From: Pollutimonas subterranea
Lineage (GTDB): Bacteria; Pseudomonadota; Gammaproteobacteria; Burkholderiales; Burkholderiaceae_B
Length of the DNA stretch: 64,000 nt
Reading direction: 5' to 3'
Assembly: GCF_002849655.1 (NCBI RefSeq)
Contig: NZ_PDNW01000016.1
Coordinates: 1 to 64,000 of the forward strand
The notes under the pieces: model-generated
The model's database searches: none
What the model saw: only the letters and a program-made list of their open reading frames with translations
What the model was told of the DNA's origin: nothing
Program-made: the position numbers and the translations under genes
Shown here: positions 14,626-22,123 of the stretch, piece by piece
Layout: each line of letters opens with the position of its first letter
How positions within the stretch are numbered: position 1 is the stretch's first letter

Positions 14626-14850
14626 AAAGGCGGGTGTGTCGGGGACTGTTTCGGCTTCACGCGCCACGCCCTGGCGTTGCCAGGGTGCCCGTTCCGGTCA
14701 GCACCATCGAGGCGCCCGCGGAACTCGCCCCGGTCGGACCGGTGGTCCGACACCCGTCGGGCTCAAACAGCCGCGGCCTTGCCTCCTCGATGGCACTGAC
14801 CGGAACGGCGTGCGCGAGGCGCCTGCACAGCCCCCGACACACCCGCCTTT
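14626..14850. repeat. 225-bp imperfect inverted repeat in a gene-free gap
   Basis: The 419-bp gap between convergent folK and ccl is filled mainly by this structure. Outer arms of 24 bases (14626-14649 and 14827-14850) match with one mismatch. Inner arms of 22 bases (14691-14712 and 14785-14806) match with two mismatches. The centre is a perfect hairpin, GTCGGACC-GGT-GGTCCGAC (14733-14751). The left side carries an extra small hairpin, CCCTGGCGTTGCCAGGG. Five T residues follow the right arm on the plus strand, so it could terminate the folK transcript. It may also be a MITE-like or REP-like element. No convincing protein is encoded. Confidence 0.75.
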
Positions 14851-14973: not shown

Positions 14974-15789
14974 TCAGGCCGCCTGCGCCAGGATTTGCCT
15001 TGCACGCTGTATGACGGGTGCGTCGACCATTTTTCCATCCAGCTGAAAAGCGGACGAACCCGTGGAATTGGCAATATCGATGACACGTTTCGCCCACTCC
15101 GCATCGGCTGCCGTGGGCGCAAACGCGGCATGAATCGTGGCGACTTGCTTGGGATGTATGCACAGCATTCCACCGAACCCCATATCGCGGACCTGCTGGG
15201 CCAGCTGAAACAAACCGTCCTCATCGGAGAAGTCGGGATAGACGCCATCCAGCGGGGCGGCGAGTCCGTGGGCGGCGCTATGCAGCAGTATCTGGCAGCG
15301 TATGTGGTTCAACAGAAGCGCAGCGCCCGCCGTGTCTGGCGCCGTGCCCAGCTCCAGCATGAGATCCAGGCTACCAAAGGAAAGGCGGGCCACTCCCTGT
15401 TGCCCCGCCATTTCACCCAGCGCCAGCACACCTTTGGCACTTTCGATAATGGGCAGAACCGTGCTGACGGCTTGAGCGACCTGCTGGACCTGAAGGGCGG
15501 ACTCGGCCTTGGGCAGCAAAACGGCACGTATGTTCGGATTATCGGCGCATGCGGCAAGGTCGGCGTTGAACCACGGCGTGGTCGCGCCGTTGATGCGAAC
15601 GCAGAAATCGGCTTGCCGGTTGGCACTCGCGAAATCGCACAGATGCTTGCGGGCCTGGTCCTTGAACGCGTGCTCGACGGCATCTTCGAGATCAATGATT
15701 ACGGTATCGGCGCCTGCCGCAAGCGCCTTGGAAAAACGCTCGGGACGAGTGGCCGGCACGAACAAGGCCGACCGGATTTGCTGCTGCAT
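14974..15789 (-). CDS. CitE-like lyase, probable (S)-citramalyl-CoA lyase
   Basis: HpcH/HpaI-CitE superfamily aldolase of 271 residues. Motifs visible include RSALFVPATRPERF, IDLEDAVE (metal ligand region), CVRINGATTPWF, LPKAES and LPIIESAKG, ending with the DGVYPDFSDEDGL and IHPKQV elements. In the itaconate pathway of Pseudomonas aeruginosa the equivalent enzyme splits citramalyl-CoA into acetyl-CoA and pyruvate. The ATG at 15789 overlaps the CoA-transferase stop as TGATG; a TTG one codon earlier is also possible. It is the third gene of an overlapping operon, which is the main support for the substrate. Malyl- or citryl-CoA activity remains possible. Confidence 0.8.
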   Translation of the reverse strand: MQQQIRSALFVPATRPERFSKALAAGADTVIIDLEDAVEHAFKDQARKHLCDFASANRQADFCVRINGATTPWFNADLAACADNPNIRAVLLPKAESALQVQQVAQAVSTVLPIIESAKGVLALGEMAGQQGVARLSFGSLDLMLELGTAPDTAGAALLLNHIRCQILLHSAAHGLAAPLDGVYPDFSDEDGLFQLAQQVRDMGFGGMLCIHPKQVATIHAAFAPTAADAEWAKRVIDIANSTGSSAFQLDGKMVDAPVIQRARQILAQAA

Positions 15790-17018
15790 CAAATTACCCC
15801 TTTTTGCGCCAGACCGCTGATTTGCTCTTCCGAGTATCCCAGGCTGGCAAGAATCGTGGCGGAATTTTCTCCCAATGCGGGAATCTTGTCCATCCGGGCT
15901 TGAAAGGCCGAACTCGTCGCCGGCGGCACAAGGGCCGGCAAGGGACCGACGGCGCTGTCCACCTGGCGCCAGCGCTCGCGCTGAGCCAGCTGCGGGTGAT
16001 TCCAGACATCCTGCATCGTGCTTACATTGGCATTGGCAATACTGGCGGCCTCGAGGCGTTCAATGACCTTCGCGCGCGACAGGGATGCAAACGTGGTCAC
16101 GATAAGAACGCGCAAGGCTTCCTTGTTGGCAACGCGCTGTGAGTTCGTGTTGAACCGGGAATCAGCGGCCACGTCGGGTTGCATCAGGACGGTGTTGCAG
16201 AATGCCGCCCATTCACGCTCGTTCTGCAATCCCAGCATGACTTCACTGCCGTCCCCGACGGGAAACGGACCATAGGGATAGATCGTGGCGTGCGATGCGC
16301 CGGCCCGCGGCGGCGGGGCGGCGCCATCGAAGGCGTAGTACATGGGAAAGCCCATCCACTCGACCATGCTCTCCAGCATGGAGACATCAATGCGGCTGCC
16401 TTGCCCGGTACGCTGGCGCAGGAGCAGTGCCGACAAGATGCTGCTGTAGGCGTACATTCCGGCGGCGATGTCCGAGATTGAACAACCCGCCTTGGCCGGA
16501 CTGTCGGGTGTCCCGGTGACGGAAAGAAAGCCGCTCTCGCTTTGAATGAGCAGGTCGTAGGCTTTTTTATCTTGATACGAACCGCCTTCGCCATAACCTG
16601 AAATATCGCACACGATCAGCCGCGGATGTTGTTCACGCAGCGCTTCATACGACAGGCCCAACCTGGCGGCGGCGCCGGGAGCCAGGTTCTGCACCAGGAC
16701 GTCCGCCTGCCCGATCAGGGCTTGCAGGATATCGGCCGCTTCCGGACGCTTCAAATCCAGCGCGAGGCTTTCCTTGGAACGATTGGTCCACACGAAGTGC
16801 GAGGCCAGTCCTTTCACCCGCTCATCGTAGCTGCGCGCAAAATCACCAACTCCCGGCCGTTCCACTTTGATGACGCGCGCGCCCATGTCGGCAAGCTGGC
16901 GCGTGCAGAATGGCGCCGCAATGGCATGCTCAAGGCTTACCACCGTAATGCCATCCAGCGGGCGTGGTGCCAGGGACGCACCGTTGGAAGCGTTGCTTGA
17001 CTGCGATGACTGACTCAT
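15789..17018 (-). CDS. Class III CoA-transferase, probable itaconate/C5-dicarboxylate CoA-transferase
   Basis: CaiB/BaiF family, 409 residues, moves CoA from a donor such as succinyl-CoA to a carboxylate. A serine-rich N-terminal stretch of about 15 residues precedes PLDGITVVSLEHAIAAPF. The catalytic aspartate is expected in KKAYDLLIQSESG, and the signatures VERPGVGDFAR, QNLAPGAAARLGL, VCDISGYGEGG and DVSMLESMVEWM are present. It overlaps the upstream hydratase by ATGA and the downstream lyase by TGATG, so the three are co-translated. Together with those neighbours the best fit is itaconate or mesaconate activation. Substrate choice is inference from context. Confidence 0.82.
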   Translation of the reverse strand: MSQSSQSSNASNGASLAPRPLDGITVVSLEHAIAAPFCTRQLADMGARVIKVERPGVGDFARSYDERVKGLASHFVWTNRSKESLALDLKRPEAADILQALIGQADVLVQNLAPGAAARLGLSYEALREQHPRLIVCDISGYGEGGSYQDKKAYDLLIQSESGFLSVTGTPDSPAKAGCSISDIAAGMYAYSSILSALLLRQRTGQGSRIDVSMLESMVEWMGFPMYYAFDGAAPPPRAGASHATIYPYGPFPVGDGSEVMLGLQNEREWAAFCNTVLMQPDVAADSRFNTNSQRVANKEALRVLIVTTFASLSRAKVIERLEAASIANANVSTMQDVWNHPQLAQRERWRQVDSAVGPLPALVPPATSSAFQARMDKIPALGENSATILASLGYSEEQISGLAQKGVI

Positions 17019-17842
17019 GCCTTAAACCTCAATTCTGCCTGGTGCGCCAGGGTATCGTCCTGGGCCGCCCAGAGTGTGGCGCCGTCGTCGGTGAGGGAGC
17101 CGGCGACCTGGAAAGGCCGAGGCGCAATCAGTGGCCGCAGGCCTCGATAGGCGAATGAAGTGACCTGCTTGTCCGGATTGGCATGGACGAATGCGGCGCA
17201 CATCAGCGTGGCGATCATGGGCCCGTGCACGACCAGGCCGGGATAACCTTCGACTTCGGTCGCATAGGGCTCATCGTAGTGAATCCGATGACCGTTGAAG
17301 GTGACGGCGGAATAGCGAAACAGCCTGACACTGGAAGGCTCGATGGTTTCGGACCATTGCGCCTGGGGCGCCGGCACGCTGCCTTCGAGCTTGGGCGCGG
17401 TGGGTTCGCGATAAACGATATCCTGCTCTTCCGAGATGCAAAGTTCGCCGTTCTGGCGATACTCGTGCTTTACCGTCACGAACAGCAGCTTGCCGGTACG
17501 GCCTTCTTTTTCCTTGACGGCGAAGATTGTGGATCGCCGCGCAGCGGGACTTCCCACGAGCAAGGGACGCAGGAATTCCAGCCTGCCTCCCGCCCACATG
17601 CGATTTCGGTTGTCGGCGGCGGGAAGGAAACCGCCGCGCTGAGGGTGGCCGTCGTCGCCTATCTCGTCATAAGGGACGCCATTGACGAACAAGGCCCAGT
17701 GCCATAAAAAGGGCAAGGCCTGGCCAGGGGCCGGCGCTGCGGCATCGAGGCTGAGGGCGATCTTTCGGATATGCCCGATATCGACCGAATCGTCGCATTC
17801 TTCAGTGCGGCCCAGCCAGGACGATGGATTCACGGTTGTCAT
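17015..17842 (-). CDS. MaoC-like hydratase, probable itaconyl-CoA/mesaconyl-C4-CoA hydratase
   Basis: About 275 residues with an N-terminal FAS1-type dehydratase-like hotdog domain and a C-terminal MaoC-like hotdog domain. Features are FLPAADNRNRMWAGGRLEF in the first half and VTFNGHRIHYDEPYA followed by GYPGLVVHGPM in the second; the D/H pair of the hydratase site is in the HYD-H element. This architecture is that of mesaconyl-C4-CoA and itaconyl-CoA hydratases. I start at ATG 17842 because GAAGAG lies upstream; an in-frame ATG at 17866 lacks a ribosome site. It is the first gene of the operon, divergent from the IlvD-like gene. Confidence 0.8.
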   Translation of the reverse strand: MTTVNPSSWLGRTEECDDSVDIGHIRKIALSLDAAAPAPGQALPFLWHWALFVNGVPYDEIGDDGHPQRGGFLPAADNRNRMWAGGRLEFLRPLLVGSPAARRSTIFAVKEKEGRTGKLLFVTVKHEYRQNGELCISEEQDIVYREPTAPKLEGSVPAPQAQWSETIEPSSVRLFRYSAVTFNGHRIHYDEPYATEVEGYPGLVVHGPMIATLMCAAFVHANPDKQVTSFAYRGLRPLIAPRPFQVAGSLTDDGATLWAAQDDTLAHQAELRFKA

Positions 17843-17999
17843 GCTGATCTCTTCGCCTTGCGTCATTTAAAACTGTAGCTTGAATGGTTATAGTGAACTT
17901 GTGAATTCGATTTTAAATAACACCGCCTTCACCGCATCTGAACCACGATGGATCAGGGCACGAAAAACCAGCGCAAACCGCCCGATGGCCCACCTTTAC

Positions 18000-18017
18000 A
18001 CGCTAATATATTAGTGT
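18000..18017. promoter_or_regulatory. Candidate operator palindrome between divergent operons
   Basis: An 18-bp palindrome with core CTAATATATTAG and one mismatched pair sits in the 220-bp gap between the MaoC-type hydratase gene and the IlvD-like gene, 48 bases before the latter's ATG. AT-rich palindromes of this form are typical binding sites for GntR- or LysR-type regulators, but no regulator gene is adjacent. The rest of the gap shows no gene. Regulator and target are inference. Confidence 0.45.
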
Positions 18018-18064: not shown

Positions 18065-19798
18065 ATGTCAAAACGCTCTTATGAATCGCTACGCAGTGCC
18101 CGCTGGTTTGCCCCCGATGACCTGCGCTCTTTCGGCCATCGCTCACGCATCATGCAAATGGGCTACGCGCCCGAAGACTGGGCGGGTCGCCCCATCATCG
18201 CCATCCTCAACACCTGGTCCGACATTAATCCTTGTCATTCCCACTTCAAGCAGCGCGTTGAAGACGTAAAACGAGGCATATTCCAAAGCGGCGGCTTTCC
18301 CATCGAGCTGCCCGCCATCTCGCTGTCCGAGAACTTCGTCAAGCCGACCACCATGCTTTATCGCAACATGCTGGCCATGGAAGCCGAAGAATTGCTGCGC
18401 AGCCATCCCGTGGATGGCGCCGTATTGATGGGCGGCTGCGACAAGACAACCCCCGGCCTGCTCATGGGCGCCATCAGCGCCGGCCTGCCGTGCATCTTTC
18501 TTCCGGCTGGCCCGATGTTGCGGGGAAACTGGAAAGGCAAGGTGCTGGGTTCCGGGTCGGATGCCTGGAAATATTGGGACGAGCGTCGCGCCGGCAAAAT
18601 CACCAAGACCGAATGGATAGGGGTGGAAGGCGGTATTGCCCGCAGCGCCGGCACCTGCATGACCATGGGAACGGCAAGCACCATGATGGCCATCGCCGAA
18701 TCGATAGGCATGTCGCTGCCCGGCGCGTCATCGATCCCCGCTGCCGACTCCAATCACATTCGCATGTCTTCCGAATGCGGTCGACGCATCGTCGAAATGG
18801 TCTGGGAAGACTTGACGCCCAAGCGCATATTCACGCGTGAGAGCTTCATAAACGCCATTGTCGTGGCCATGGCCATGGGCTGTTCCACCAATGCGGTCAT
18901 TCATCTGGTTGCCATGTCGCGACGGGCAGGATGCCCGGTAAGCCTGGACGACTTCGACGCAGCCAGCCGGAACATACCTGTCATTGCCAACGTGCGGCCC
19001 AGTGGCGACACCTACCTGATGGAAGACTTCTTCTACGCCGGAGGCCTTCCCGCACTGATGGAGCGCCTGGGCGACCGCCTGGACCGAAGCCAGCTTACCG
19101 TCACGGGCCGTACGCTCGGCGAGAACATCGCCGGCGCCGAAGTCCATAATGACGACGTGATCCGTCCTTTGGACAACCCGCTGTACCATGAAGGCGCCCT
19201 GGCCGTCTTGCGCGGCAACCTGGCGCCCTCCGGCTGCGTCATCAAGCCCAGCGCTTGCGCGCCGCAGTTCTTGCAACATACCGGACCCGCGCTGGTATTT
19301 GACGACTACCCCAGCATGAAGGCGGCGGTGGAAGACGAGAACCTCGACGTCACGCCTGAACACATCATGGTGCTGCGCAATGCCGGTCCTCAAGGAGGGC
19401 CGGGCATGCCGGAATGGGGCATGTTGCCCATACCCACCAAATTGCTCAAGCAAGGCGTACGCGACATGCTGCGTGTGTCCGACGCCCGCATGAGCGGAAC
19501 CAGCTACGGCGCCTGCATTTTGCATGTCGCACCCGAAGCCTATGTAGGCGGCAACCTGGCCCTGGTAAAGACGGGCGACCTGATCACCGTCGACGTGCCG
19601 GGGCGCCGCATTCATCTCGAAGTCAGCGACGAAGAGCTGGCGCAACGCCGGGCCGCCTGGACGCCTCCGCCCAAGGTTTTCGAGCGGGGCTACGGATGGA
19701 TGTTTTCCAAGCATATATTGCAGGCCGACTCCGGCTGCGACCTTGATTTCCTGGAAACCGAATTTGGCGCCCCAAACCGCGAACCCACTATTTTCTAA
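18065..19798 (+). CDS. IlvD/Edd-family dehydratase, sugar-acid type
   Basis: Iron-sulfur dehydratase of 577 residues. It resembles L-arabinonate and other aldonate dehydratases rather than IlvD proper, judged from the N-terminal KxFAPDDLRSFGHRSR-like segment, INTWSDINPCH(S)HF, KPTTMLYRNMLAMEAEE, and GGCDKTTPGLLMGA (cluster cysteine and metal-binding region). Conserved PGASSIPAADSNHIRMS and MGCSTNAV are also present. The enzyme would remove water from an aldonate to give a 2-keto-3-deoxy acid. It is followed at 14 bases by the RraA-like gene. Dihydroxy-acid dehydratase activity cannot be excluded. The exact sugar acid is unknown. Confidence 0.85.
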   Translation: MSKRSYESLRSARWFAPDDLRSFGHRSRIMQMGYAPEDWAGRPIIAILNTWSDINPCHSHFKQRVEDVKRGIFQSGGFPIELPAISLSENFVKPTTMLYRNMLAMEAEELLRSHPVDGAVLMGGCDKTTPGLLMGAISAGLPCIFLPAGPMLRGNWKGKVLGSGSDAWKYWDERRAGKITKTEWIGVEGGIARSAGTCMTMGTASTMMAIAESIGMSLPGASSIPAADSNHIRMSSECGRRIVEMVWEDLTPKRIFTRESFINAIVVAMAMGCSTNAVIHLVAMSRRAGCPVSLDDFDAASRNIPVIANVRPSGDTYLMEDFFYAGGLPALMERLGDRLDRSQLTVTGRTLGENIAGAEVHNDDVIRPLDNPLYHEGALAVLRGNLAPSGCVIKPSACAPQFLQHTGPALVFDDYPSMKAAVEDENLDVTPEHIMVLRNAGPQGGPGMPEWGMLPIPTKLLKQGVRDMLRVSDARMSGTSYGACILHVAPEAYVGGNLALVKTGDLITVDVPGRRIHLEVSDEELAQRRAAWTPPPKVFERGYGWMFSKHILQADSGCDLDFLETEFGAPNREPTIF

Positions 19799-19811
19799 TT
19801 AGGAGCAACAC

Positions 19812-20528
19812 GTGTCCCTGAGTCCCGACCTACGCCAGAAGCTGGCTACCATCAGCACCGCAACGCTATGCACGGCATTGTTCAAGCGCGGCTTGCGCAA
19901 CCAGTTCATCCAGGATGTCCGCCCGCTAAATCCCGCCTTGCCGAATATGGTGGGCGTTGCGTACACCTTGCGCTACATTCCCGCGCGTGAAGACCTGAAT
20001 CCCCTGACCGTGTTCCAGAACCGCGATCATCCGCAACGGGTCGCCGTGGACCAATGCCCTGAAGGCGCTGTCCTCATGATAGACAGTCGCAAAGATGCGC
20101 GCGCCGCGTCAGCCGGCTCCATACTGGTGTCGCGCCTGATGATGCGCGGCGCCGCCGGCGTGGTCACGGACGGAGGCTTTCGCGATTCACCCGAGATCGC
20201 CGGCCTTCCCTTTCCGGCCTACCATAACCGCCCTTCGGCCCCGACCAACCTGACATTGCACCAGGCGCTCGACATCAACGTTCCCATCGGCTGCGGCGAC
20301 GTTGCCGTTTTTCCCGGGGACGTGATCGTGGGCGATGGCGAAGGCGTGGTGGTCATTCCCGCTCACCTGGCCGAGGAAATCGCCACCGAGGCCGTCGACA
20401 TGACGGCCTACGAAGACTTCGTGACCGAGGAAGTACTCAAGGGAAGGTCCATCATCGGGCTGTATCCCGCCACCGATGAGCAGGCCCGCGCCGACTTTTC
20501 CGCATGGAGGCAGGCGCAGGGTCGATAA
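19812..20528 (+). CDS. RraA / HMG-aldolase family protein
   Basis: Protein of 238 residues with GTG start, preceded by AGGAG at suitable spacing. The fold is the methyltransferase-like RraA type shared by RraA (ribonuclease E inhibitor) and 4-hydroxy-4-methyl-2-oxoglutarate aldolases. The segment TDGGFRDSPEI keeps the Arg-Asp-x2-Glu pattern associated with aldolase activity, and STATLCTALFKRG is the family's start. Its position directly behind a sugar-acid dehydratase suggests a lyase acting on the dehydrated product rather than a ribonuclease regulator. The annotation as RraA proper is therefore unlikely. A clear terminator follows. Confidence 0.82.
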   Translation: MSLSPDLRQKLATISTATLCTALFKRGLRNQFIQDVRPLNPALPNMVGVAYTLRYIPAREDLNPLTVFQNRDHPQRVAVDQCPEGAVLMIDSRKDARAASAGSILVSRLMMRGAAGVVTDGGFRDSPEIAGLPFPAYHNRPSAPTNLTLHQALDINVPIGCGDVAVFPGDVIVGDGEGVVVIPAHLAEEIATEAVDMTAYEDFVTEEVLKGRSIIGLYPATDEQARADFSAWRQAQGR

Positions 20529-20596: not shown

Positions 20597-22123
20597 TTAT
20601 TTCACGGCCATCAATGGAATCTCCGCTATGCGCGCCTTCCACTCCTTGGGTCCTGTTTCATGGACCGACGTACCTGTCGAGTCGACGGCCACCGTCACCG
20701 GCATGTCTTTGACGTCGAACTCGTAAATGGCTTCCATGCCCAGGTCTTCGAAGCCGACGACCTTGGCACCGCGGATGGCCTTGGAGACCAGGTAAGCCGA
20801 ACCACCGACCGCCATCAAATAGGCCGACCCGTGACGCCGTATGGACTCGATGGCCACCGGGCCACGCTCGGCCTTGCCTATCATGGAAATCAGGCCGGTT
20901 TTTTCGAGCATCATGTCGGTGAACTTGTCCATGCGCGTAGCGGTGGTCGGGCCGGCGGGGCCGACGACTTCGTCGCCTACCGGATCGACCGGGCCGACGT
21001 AATAGATAACCCGGTTGGTGAAGTCCACCGGCAACGGCTCGCCATTTTCCAGCATGTCATTGATACGTTTATGCGCGGCATCCCGTCCTGTCAGCATTTT
21101 CCCGGACAAGAGCAAGGTTTGACCGGGCTTCCAGCTGGCGACCTGCTCTTTGGTCAGCGTGTTGAGGTCCACCTGCAGCGACTTGTTGTAGTCGGGAGCC
21201 CAATGCACATCGGGCCAGTCCGACAACGACGGCGGCGTCAGCTGCGCAGGTCCCGAGCCGTCCAGCTCGAAATGCACGTGGCGCGTTGCCGCGCAGTTCG
21301 GGATCATGGCCACGGGCTTGGACGCGGCATGGGTGGGGAAGGTGTGAATCTTGACATCCAGCACCGTCGTTAGCCCGCCCAGGCCCTGCGCGCCTATGCC
21401 CAATGCATTCACTTTCTGATAGAGCTCGATACGCAGCTCTTCCAGTTTAGTCTGCGGCCCGCGCTGCAGCAGCTCGTACATGTCGATGTCTTCCATCAGC
21501 GACTGCTTGGCCATCAGCATGGCCTTTTCAGCCGTTCCGCCTACACCTATGCCCAGCATGCCGGGCGGACACCAGCCTGCGCCCATCTGGGGCACTGTCT
21601 TCAGAACCCAGTCGATCAGCGAATCGCTGGGATTGAGCATGGCGAACTTTGACTTGTTTTCGGAGCCGCCGCCCTTGGCGGCAACCTGCACGTCGACCTT
21701 GTTGCCCGCAACCAGCTCGACACTCACGATACAGGGGGTGTTGTCGCGGCTGTTCTTGCGTGTGAACAAGGGGTCGGTAAGAATCGATGCGCGCAAGGGA
21801 TTATCGGGATTCAAGTATCCCTGGCGCACGCCTTCATCACACACTTCCTGCATACTGCGGCGCGTGTCGAATCGCACGTCCATACCCACTTTAAGAAATA
21901 CATTGACCACGCCCGTGTCCTGGCAGATAGGGCGATGGCCTTCCGCACACATGCGTGAATTGGTCAGGATCTGGGCAATGGCATCTTTGGCGGCCGGGCT
22001 TTCTTCGAGTTCGTATGCACGCGCCAGATGCTGGATGTAATCGGCTGGATGGTAATAGCTGATGAACTGTACGGCGTCGGCGACAGACTGGATCAGGTCG
22101 CGTTCTTGAATGATGGTTGTCAT
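20597..22123 (-). CDS. Class I fumarate hydratase (possible mesaconase activity)
   Basis: Iron-sulfur class I fumarase of 508 residues on a single chain, with N-terminal motif SRMCAEGHRPICQDTGVVNVF (cluster cysteines at C and the PICQDTG element) and C-terminal GPTTATRMDKF and GGSAYLVSKAI segments. It interconverts fumarate and malate in the citric acid cycle. Class I fumarases of several beta- and gammaproteobacteria also act on mesaconate and citramalate, and this gene sits next to the C5-dicarboxylate operon, so dual use is plausible but unproven. An enoyl-CoA hydratase gene lies 73 bases upstream on the same strand. Confidence 0.9.
   Translation of the reverse strand: MTTIIQERDLIQSVADAVQFISYYHPADYIQHLARAYELEESPAAKDAIAQILTNSRMCAEGHRPICQDTGVVNVFLKVGMDVRFDTRRSMQEVCDEGVRQGYLNPDNPLRASILTDPLFTRKNSRDNTPCIVSVELVAGNKVDVQVAAKGGGSENKSKFAMLNPSDSLIDWVLKTVPQMGAGWCPPGMLGIGVGGTAEKAMLMAKQSLMEDIDMYELLQRGPQTKLEELRIELYQKVNALGIGAQGLGGLTTVLDVKIHTFPTHAASKPVAMIPNCAATRHVHFELDGSGPAQLTPPSLSDWPDVHWAPDYNKSLQVDLNTLTKEQVASWKPGQTLLLSGKMLTGRDAAHKRINDMLENGEPLPVDFTNRVIYYVGPVDPVGDEVVGPAGPTTATRMDKFTDMMLEKTGLISMIGKAERGPVAIESIRRHGSAYLMAVGGSAYLVSKAIRGAKVVGFEDLGMEAIYEFDVKDMPVTVAVDSTGTSVHETGPKEWKARIAEIPLMAVK

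Follow-up and report, generated by a model that had tools for sequence, protein, structure and literature searches.

The stretch of Pollutimonas subterranea DNA analysed here, 64,000 nucleotides long and called the window below, holds overlapping genes for a hydratase, a CoA-transferase and a lyase, and the question that this locus raises is whether they form an itaconate-degradation operon of the kind known from Pseudomonas aeruginosa or serve some other dicarboxylate. We read the trio as an ich-ict-ccl operon of the P. aeruginosa type, an ordinary and well supported assignment that, from sequence comparison, we put at a probability of about 0.92. The genes are intact and orthologous to those of P. 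aeruginosa, keep conserved segments, are under purifying selection and lie in a conserved context:

17015..17842 (alternative start 17866), minus strand: ich, orthologue of itaconyl-CoA hydratase / mesaconyl-C4-CoA hydratase, MaoC/FAS1-like
15789..17018, minus strand: ict, orthologue of itaconate CoA-transferase, class III
14974..15789 (alternative TTG start 15792), minus strand: ccl, orthologue of (S)-citramalyl-CoA lyase, CitE-like

Three contiguous open reading frames, ich, then ict, then ccl, fill the minus strand from 14974 to 17866, in the hydratase-transferase-lyase order that the initial annotation had given, which is also that of the cluster in P. aeruginosa PA7 once its three inserted genes are set aside. 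Ich has 283 residues from the ATG at 17866 and 275 from the ATG at 17842; the latter start, at which the initial annotation had ended the operon, gives the same length as the PA7 Ich reading frame. Ict has 409 residues (17018-15789), and Ccl has 271 from the ATG at 15789 or 272 from the TTG at 15792. The overlap of about four bases claimed for each junction is exactly four between ich and ict (17015-17018) and depends on the start codon between ict and ccl, being one base (TGATG) with the ATG and four with the TTG. The three proteins carry the Pfam domains FAS1_DH_region (Ich), CoA_transf_3 (Ict, P0002; E 1.7e-107) and HpcH_HpaI (Ccl), and these domains, together with the PDB chains matched by the proteins, bear out the three enzyme types first proposed and rule out chance matches. 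NG86 dN/dS values of 0.04-0.12 for ich, ict and ccl against the congeners G003, G002 and G004 indicate purifying selection. One TAA is read through in the ccl match of G002, where a codon comparison over 265 codons showed no stop.

The proposed kinship with the Ich, Ict and Ccl of P. aeruginosa agrees with both direct comparison and trees, identity to the PA7 proteins being 57% for Ich, 73% over 394 residues for Ict and 51% for Ccl. Ich (P0003) has two strong sequence matches in the PDB, both at about 345 bits (phmmer), one of them 8khg, a chain named itaconyl-CoA hydratase (E 2e-102). The PDB search gives molecule names and no organisms, and the origin of 8khg was taken from the PA7 genome, to which its sequence is 98% identical over 268 residues. 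The segments FNGHRIHYD and VVHGP, which we take to be parts of the active site, are the same in PA7 Ich. In a tree of 34 rows the window Ich lies within a 23-row clade (support 99/98) with nine Pseudomonadaceae rows, a placement that assigns it by phylogeny to the clade of the characterised P. aeruginosa Ich. The nine Pseudomonadaceae loci in this and the two following trees were hand-picked from 80 kept of 500 confirmed. Ich is single copy in its own genome (E <= 0.001), and all 208 plasmid records matched by tblastn are below 60% identity.

The Ict segment KAYDLLIQSE, presumably containing the catalytic Asp, is the same in PA7 Ict. In the Ict tree (57 rows) the window protein falls in a 24-row clade with support 100/100, together with the nine Pseudomonadaceae rows and one paralogue from its own genome (C61:151964-153061), which forms the first branch; the branch leading to this clade is long and meets another long branch, as a warning of the tree program noted. 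The genome encodes 26 class III CoA-transferases including the window Ict, one of which, the fragment L182, was left out of the tree for a match of less than 300 residues; of the 24 others in the tree, 23 lie outside the Ict clade and the one on contig C61 lies inside. The Pseudomonas CoA-transferase L054_612 is also outside. Formyl-CoA transferase and succinate-HMG CoA-transferase were rejected as identities for Ict, the best solved chain of the former name reaching 237 bits and the latter 219 bits with phmmer against 590 bits with BLASTP for PA7 Ict, scores that are only roughly comparable across the two programs. A bile-acid CoA-transferase, which the initial annotation had named as a possible contrary outcome, is not among the seven NCBIfam families that match P0002, in a comparison whose tree held no reference bile-acid transferase.

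Ccl (P0001) matches the acyl-CoA lyase beta chains 8khl and 9nzb (E 9e-78 and 6e-78, 265 bits, phmmer), and 8khl aligned with PA7 Ccl is nearly identical when judged by eye. Its weaker PDB matches by the same program are 6aq4 (139 bits), which we take to be M. tuberculosis Rv2498c, and malyl-CoA lyases, none of them above 88 bits. A tree of 28 rows places it in a 20-row clade (support 99/96) with the same nine Pseudomonadaceae loci as the Ich tree, every member being at least 51% identical to it, and leaves outside the one other CitE homologue found in the genome (contig C44, 32% identical, adjoining a CoA-transferase gene). The grouping with malyl-CoA lyases that had been foreseen as a contrary outcome was not seen, at most 88 bits standing against 265 for the P. 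aeruginosa-like lyase. Two further identities were rejected for Ccl, namely a citrate lyase beta subunit, ruled out by PDB and NCBIfam profile matches, and RipC, whose NCBIfam model RipC_Ccl gave 169.3 bits with a cut-off of 375. The name Rip presumably follows Yersinia/Salmonella usage.

The enzymology of the P. aeruginosa and C. necator pathway proteins has been described, with Ich and Ccl as the pathway-specific enzymes (PMC12290011), and PA0878, PA0882 and PA0883 correspond to Ich, Ict and Ccl (PMC9875883, PMC12290011). For the trio we infer catalytic steps, substrate range, co-transcription and regulation. Ict would transfer CoA from succinyl-CoA to itaconate, Ich would isomerise and hydrate itaconyl-CoA to (S)-citramalyl-CoA, which it would also form by hydrating mesaconyl-C4-CoA, and Ccl would cleave (S)-citramalyl-CoA to acetyl-CoA and pyruvate. 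The products of msi and mcd, two genes located at another site in the genome, would extend the range to methylsuccinate, and a nearby class I fumarase would perhaps bring in mesaconate via (S)-citramalate.

The P. aeruginosa itaconate/methylsuccinate cluster PA0878-PA0883 consists of ich, mcd, the 2-hydroxyparaconate lactonase gene, msi, ict and ccl. Compared with its PA7 copy, the window keeps the order of ich, ict and ccl, all three orthologous, but lacks mcd, the lactonase gene and msi between ich and ict, mcd-msi being on another contig, and has neither a divergent LysR gene nor TRAP genes alongside the trio. The C. necator cluster E6A55_22580-22600 has the same enzyme types according to its published description, which was compared without sequences, and unites five genes where we find three and two elsewhere (PMC12290011). 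The itaconate operon of the Yersinia type carries out the same three reactions and is described as a convergent variant (PMC12290011); the window lyase is far below the RipC_Ccl threshold (169 vs 375 bits).

The arm of the pathway that lies elsewhere bears on the alternative that survives best, namely that the operon is mainly for methylsuccinate via mesaconyl-C4-CoA, with itaconate use secondary. We find matches to PA7 Msi (62%, C4:11370-12698) and PA7 Mcd (78%, C4:12752-13891) adjacent on contig C4 with a divergent LysR gene, whose product shares 45% identity with the LysR encoded divergently from PA7 ich; weaker matches elsewhere in the genome do not exceed 35% for Msi and 47% for Mcd. The five genes do not form a single cluster, the best mcd and msi matches sitting on C4 away from the trio. 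A survey of the 14 ich-bearing family genomes with the PA7 LysR as query (E <= 1e-70, 20 of its loci inspected) found mcd beside a LysR gene and apart from ich in 11, the own genome included; 10 of the 11 stretches also include the beginning of msi. This locus and ich are on different contigs in all 11 or, where they share one (G006, G013, G022), at least 0.8 Mb apart. The fact that mcd is kept so widely, with Mcd 87-98% identical to the own copy in the 10 other genomes, favours a main role in methylsuccinate use, and so does the roughly sevenfold higher efficiency of C. necator Ict with (R)-methylsuccinate than with itaconate (PMC12290011). However, P. aeruginosa Ict is similarly efficient with both acids (PMC12290011), msi and mcd stand outside the ich-ict-ccl operon, and G007, G009 and G015 showed no mcd-LysR locus in the LysR-based search, in which mcd was no query and some weaker LysR matches were left out. 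We therefore regard methylsuccinate as the main substrate as possible, though doubtful. In G007 the closest LysR (68%) is divergent beside ich, as in PA7. According to the published survey, msi always adjoins mcd and 36.4% of msi genes belong to complete five-gene clusters, with one or more genes missing from the others (PMC12290011), and the split layout here is accordingly a detail of an already known type of system.

A putative uptake gene likewise lies elsewhere. P. aeruginosa requires the TRAP transporter IctPQM for itaconate use (PMC12599236), of which the TRAP genes near PA7 ccl would be the orthologues, and contig C8 encodes a TRAP binding protein that shares 58% identity with its counterpart downstream of PA7 ccl.

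The second Ict, on contig C61, is 69% identical to the window Ict, and ict may thus be partly redundant. Its locus (L203 6707-13101, own genome G000) has no ich or ccl adjoining, and its neighbours are a serine hydrolase-like gene (by eye), a divergent LysR gene and TRAP-transporter-like genes. This LysR is 55% identical to the LysR of PA7 ich and is the closest to it in the genome. The locus may allow entry of an ester or of a different C5 acid.

Among 41 genomes searched, 19 have Ich matches. Within the family such a match of 58-100% identity is present in 14 of 25 genomes, the own one included, and none of the 16 genomes of other families has one above 50%. In 11 of the 14, ccl follows ict; in G013, G017 and G019, ich-ict has no ccl adjoining, and the window Ccl has 5, 5 and 7 matches in these genomes, which do not exceed 43% identity apart from short pieces. 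The corresponding loci L125, L128 and L130 (G017, G019, G013) read fumarase-ich-ict with no ccl beside them. That the trio is not strictly kept together counts against the operon reading, as do the identity of Ccl to PA7 of only 51% and the second Ict on C61. Homology alone is also no proof of function, since C. necator has a second Ich homologue that is thought to act in another pathway (PMC12290011).

In the window the trio sits between folK and a class I fumarase gene, and no regulator or transporter gene is found from the one to the other, a further point against the operon reading:

20597..22123, minus strand: class I fumarase, possibly mesaconase too, with Fumerase and Fumerase_C domains; accessory, outside the operon here

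The proposed mesaconase role of this enzyme (mesaconate to (S)-citramalate) is taken from PMC4682846, where class I fumarases are able to hydrate mesaconate, and it would allow the operon to serve mesaconate or (S)-citramalate jointly with the fumarase. This reading gains from the gene neighbourhood. Six of the 14 genomes (G006, G013, G017, G019, G022, G024) carry the fumarase gene immediately upstream of ich in the same orientation, with 121-342 bases separating the matched ends, and in four more, including our own, it is nearby, with ilvD-rraA parting the two (G000, G002, G003, G004; one further gene in G002 and G004); in the other four (G001, G007, G009, G015) it is not near ich. Yet the fumarase gene keeps its location even where ich is missing, since in 6 of 8 family genomes lacking an ich orthologue folK is near it (at most 1 kb away in five, about 1.8 kb in G012), which makes its position independent of ich. 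In the remaining two, the contig ends near the fumarase gene (G021) or folK was not found within 15 kb of it (G016); G014 gave no fumarase match, and the survey omitted G011 and G018. Furthermore, mesaconate use in engineered P. putida required Ict and Ccl, not Ich (PMC9875883), and the presence of ich therefore points to itaconate and/or methylsuccinate. A dedicated role in mesaconate or (S)-citramalate use is for these reasons unlikely. Further fumarase genes of the genome are a class II-like one on contig C4 and another of class I (59%) on contig C44.

The ilvD-rraA pair (18065-20528, plus strand) was rejected as part of the operon because it is transcribed divergently and six relatives lack it between fumarase and ich. 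It consists of an ilvD-family gene, scoring 1113 bits with the L-arabinonate dehydratase model (cut-off 882), and an RraA-like aldolase gene, and probably serves sugar-acid breakdown with cleavage to pyruvate. In G002 and G004 it is followed by a gene that by eye resembles those for tripartite-tricarboxylate-type binding proteins.

That the trio acts on another dicarboxylyl-CoA, as may the paralogous five-gene sets of relatives (G002 contig C41, G017 contig C10), is highly improbable, because the window proteins lie outside the branches of these paralogues and inside those with Pseudomonas. The sets themselves, with msi-, mcd-, ich-, ccl- and ict-like genes (L135 5323-10822 and L137 1535-7919, respectively), form their own branches in the trees at identities of 34-42% (Ich-like), 31-32% (Ccl-like), 37-38% (Ict-like) and 58-60% (Mcd-like), and possibly serve another branched dicarboxylate.

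For the ich-ict-ccl operon, a candidate control element lies upstream of ich:

17899..17920, minus strand: putative operator/promoter block TTATnnAAAAnnGAATTCnnAA, conserved upstream of ich

The block lies 57-78 bases ahead of the 17842 start. Eleven of the 14 family genomes with ich match at least 13 of its 16 letters (16 in six, 15 in one, 14 in two and 13 in two), and the others match 12 letters (one genome) or 7-8 (two); the pattern was drawn by eye from the upstream sequences of the window and its relatives, which makes these high scores partly circular. Across 500 shuffles of the window stretch the top score ranged over 8-12, with 12 reached five times, and the nine Pseudomonadaceae regions upstream of ich score 8-12, at chance level. 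An exact copy occurs in the own genome only upstream of ich, and with up to two mismatches there are five places against two for a reversed control. A LysR protein may control the trio. At mcd-lysR, at the second ict with its lysR, at the C8 TRAP gene and at the C44 transferase the best scores are 8-11 of 16, which shuffles reach too; with no shared upstream block, joint control of the trio and mcd-msi-lysR is a guess. A sigma-70 promoter scan predicted three sites where 1.0 was expected but placed none ahead of ich on its strand, which also counts against the operon reading; a terminator scan gave two against 3.6 expected.

Two other noncoding elements were observed. The palindrome CTAATATATTAG at 18003-18014, in the ilvD/ich intergenic region, is conserved in G002, G003 and G004, whereas G001, which lacks ilvD at this place, does not have it upstream of ich; it is likely an operator for ilvD-rraA. 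Between folK and ccl, 14626-14850 holds nested inverted repeats with 39-base arms that are 82% complementary and 24-base arms that are 92% complementary. The inner arm pattern occurs at a single place in the window (up to three mismatches) and exactly in no other of 228 loci, and a blastn search with the whole stretch, run against the window and some of the loci, gave no further match.

Beyond the initial annotation, the analysis adds msi-mcd-LysR and a TRAP protein elsewhere in the genome, a fumarase neighbour and a conserved upstream block. There is weak evidence that the order fumarase-ich-ict-ccl is unreported, no description of it being found among the literature matches listed, the available extracts of PMC12290011 and PMC9875883 included. 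By prediction, these genes provide the organism with every step needed to degrade itaconate and methylsuccinate, and probably mesaconate and citramalate as well; they also show that the methylsuccinate genes can be located away from the core with both being retained. It is conceivable, though we think it improbable, that the C5-dicarboxylate system of the family is split into an ich-ict-ccl core by a fumarase/mesaconase and a distant mcd-msi-lysR arm that are run together, and that fumarase-ich-ict in the relatives lacking ccl is a detoxification shunt from itaconate (and mesaconate) to citramalate that yields no carbon. The relatives with ich-ict and no adjoining ccl would offer a natural test of itaconate neutralisation without its use for growth.
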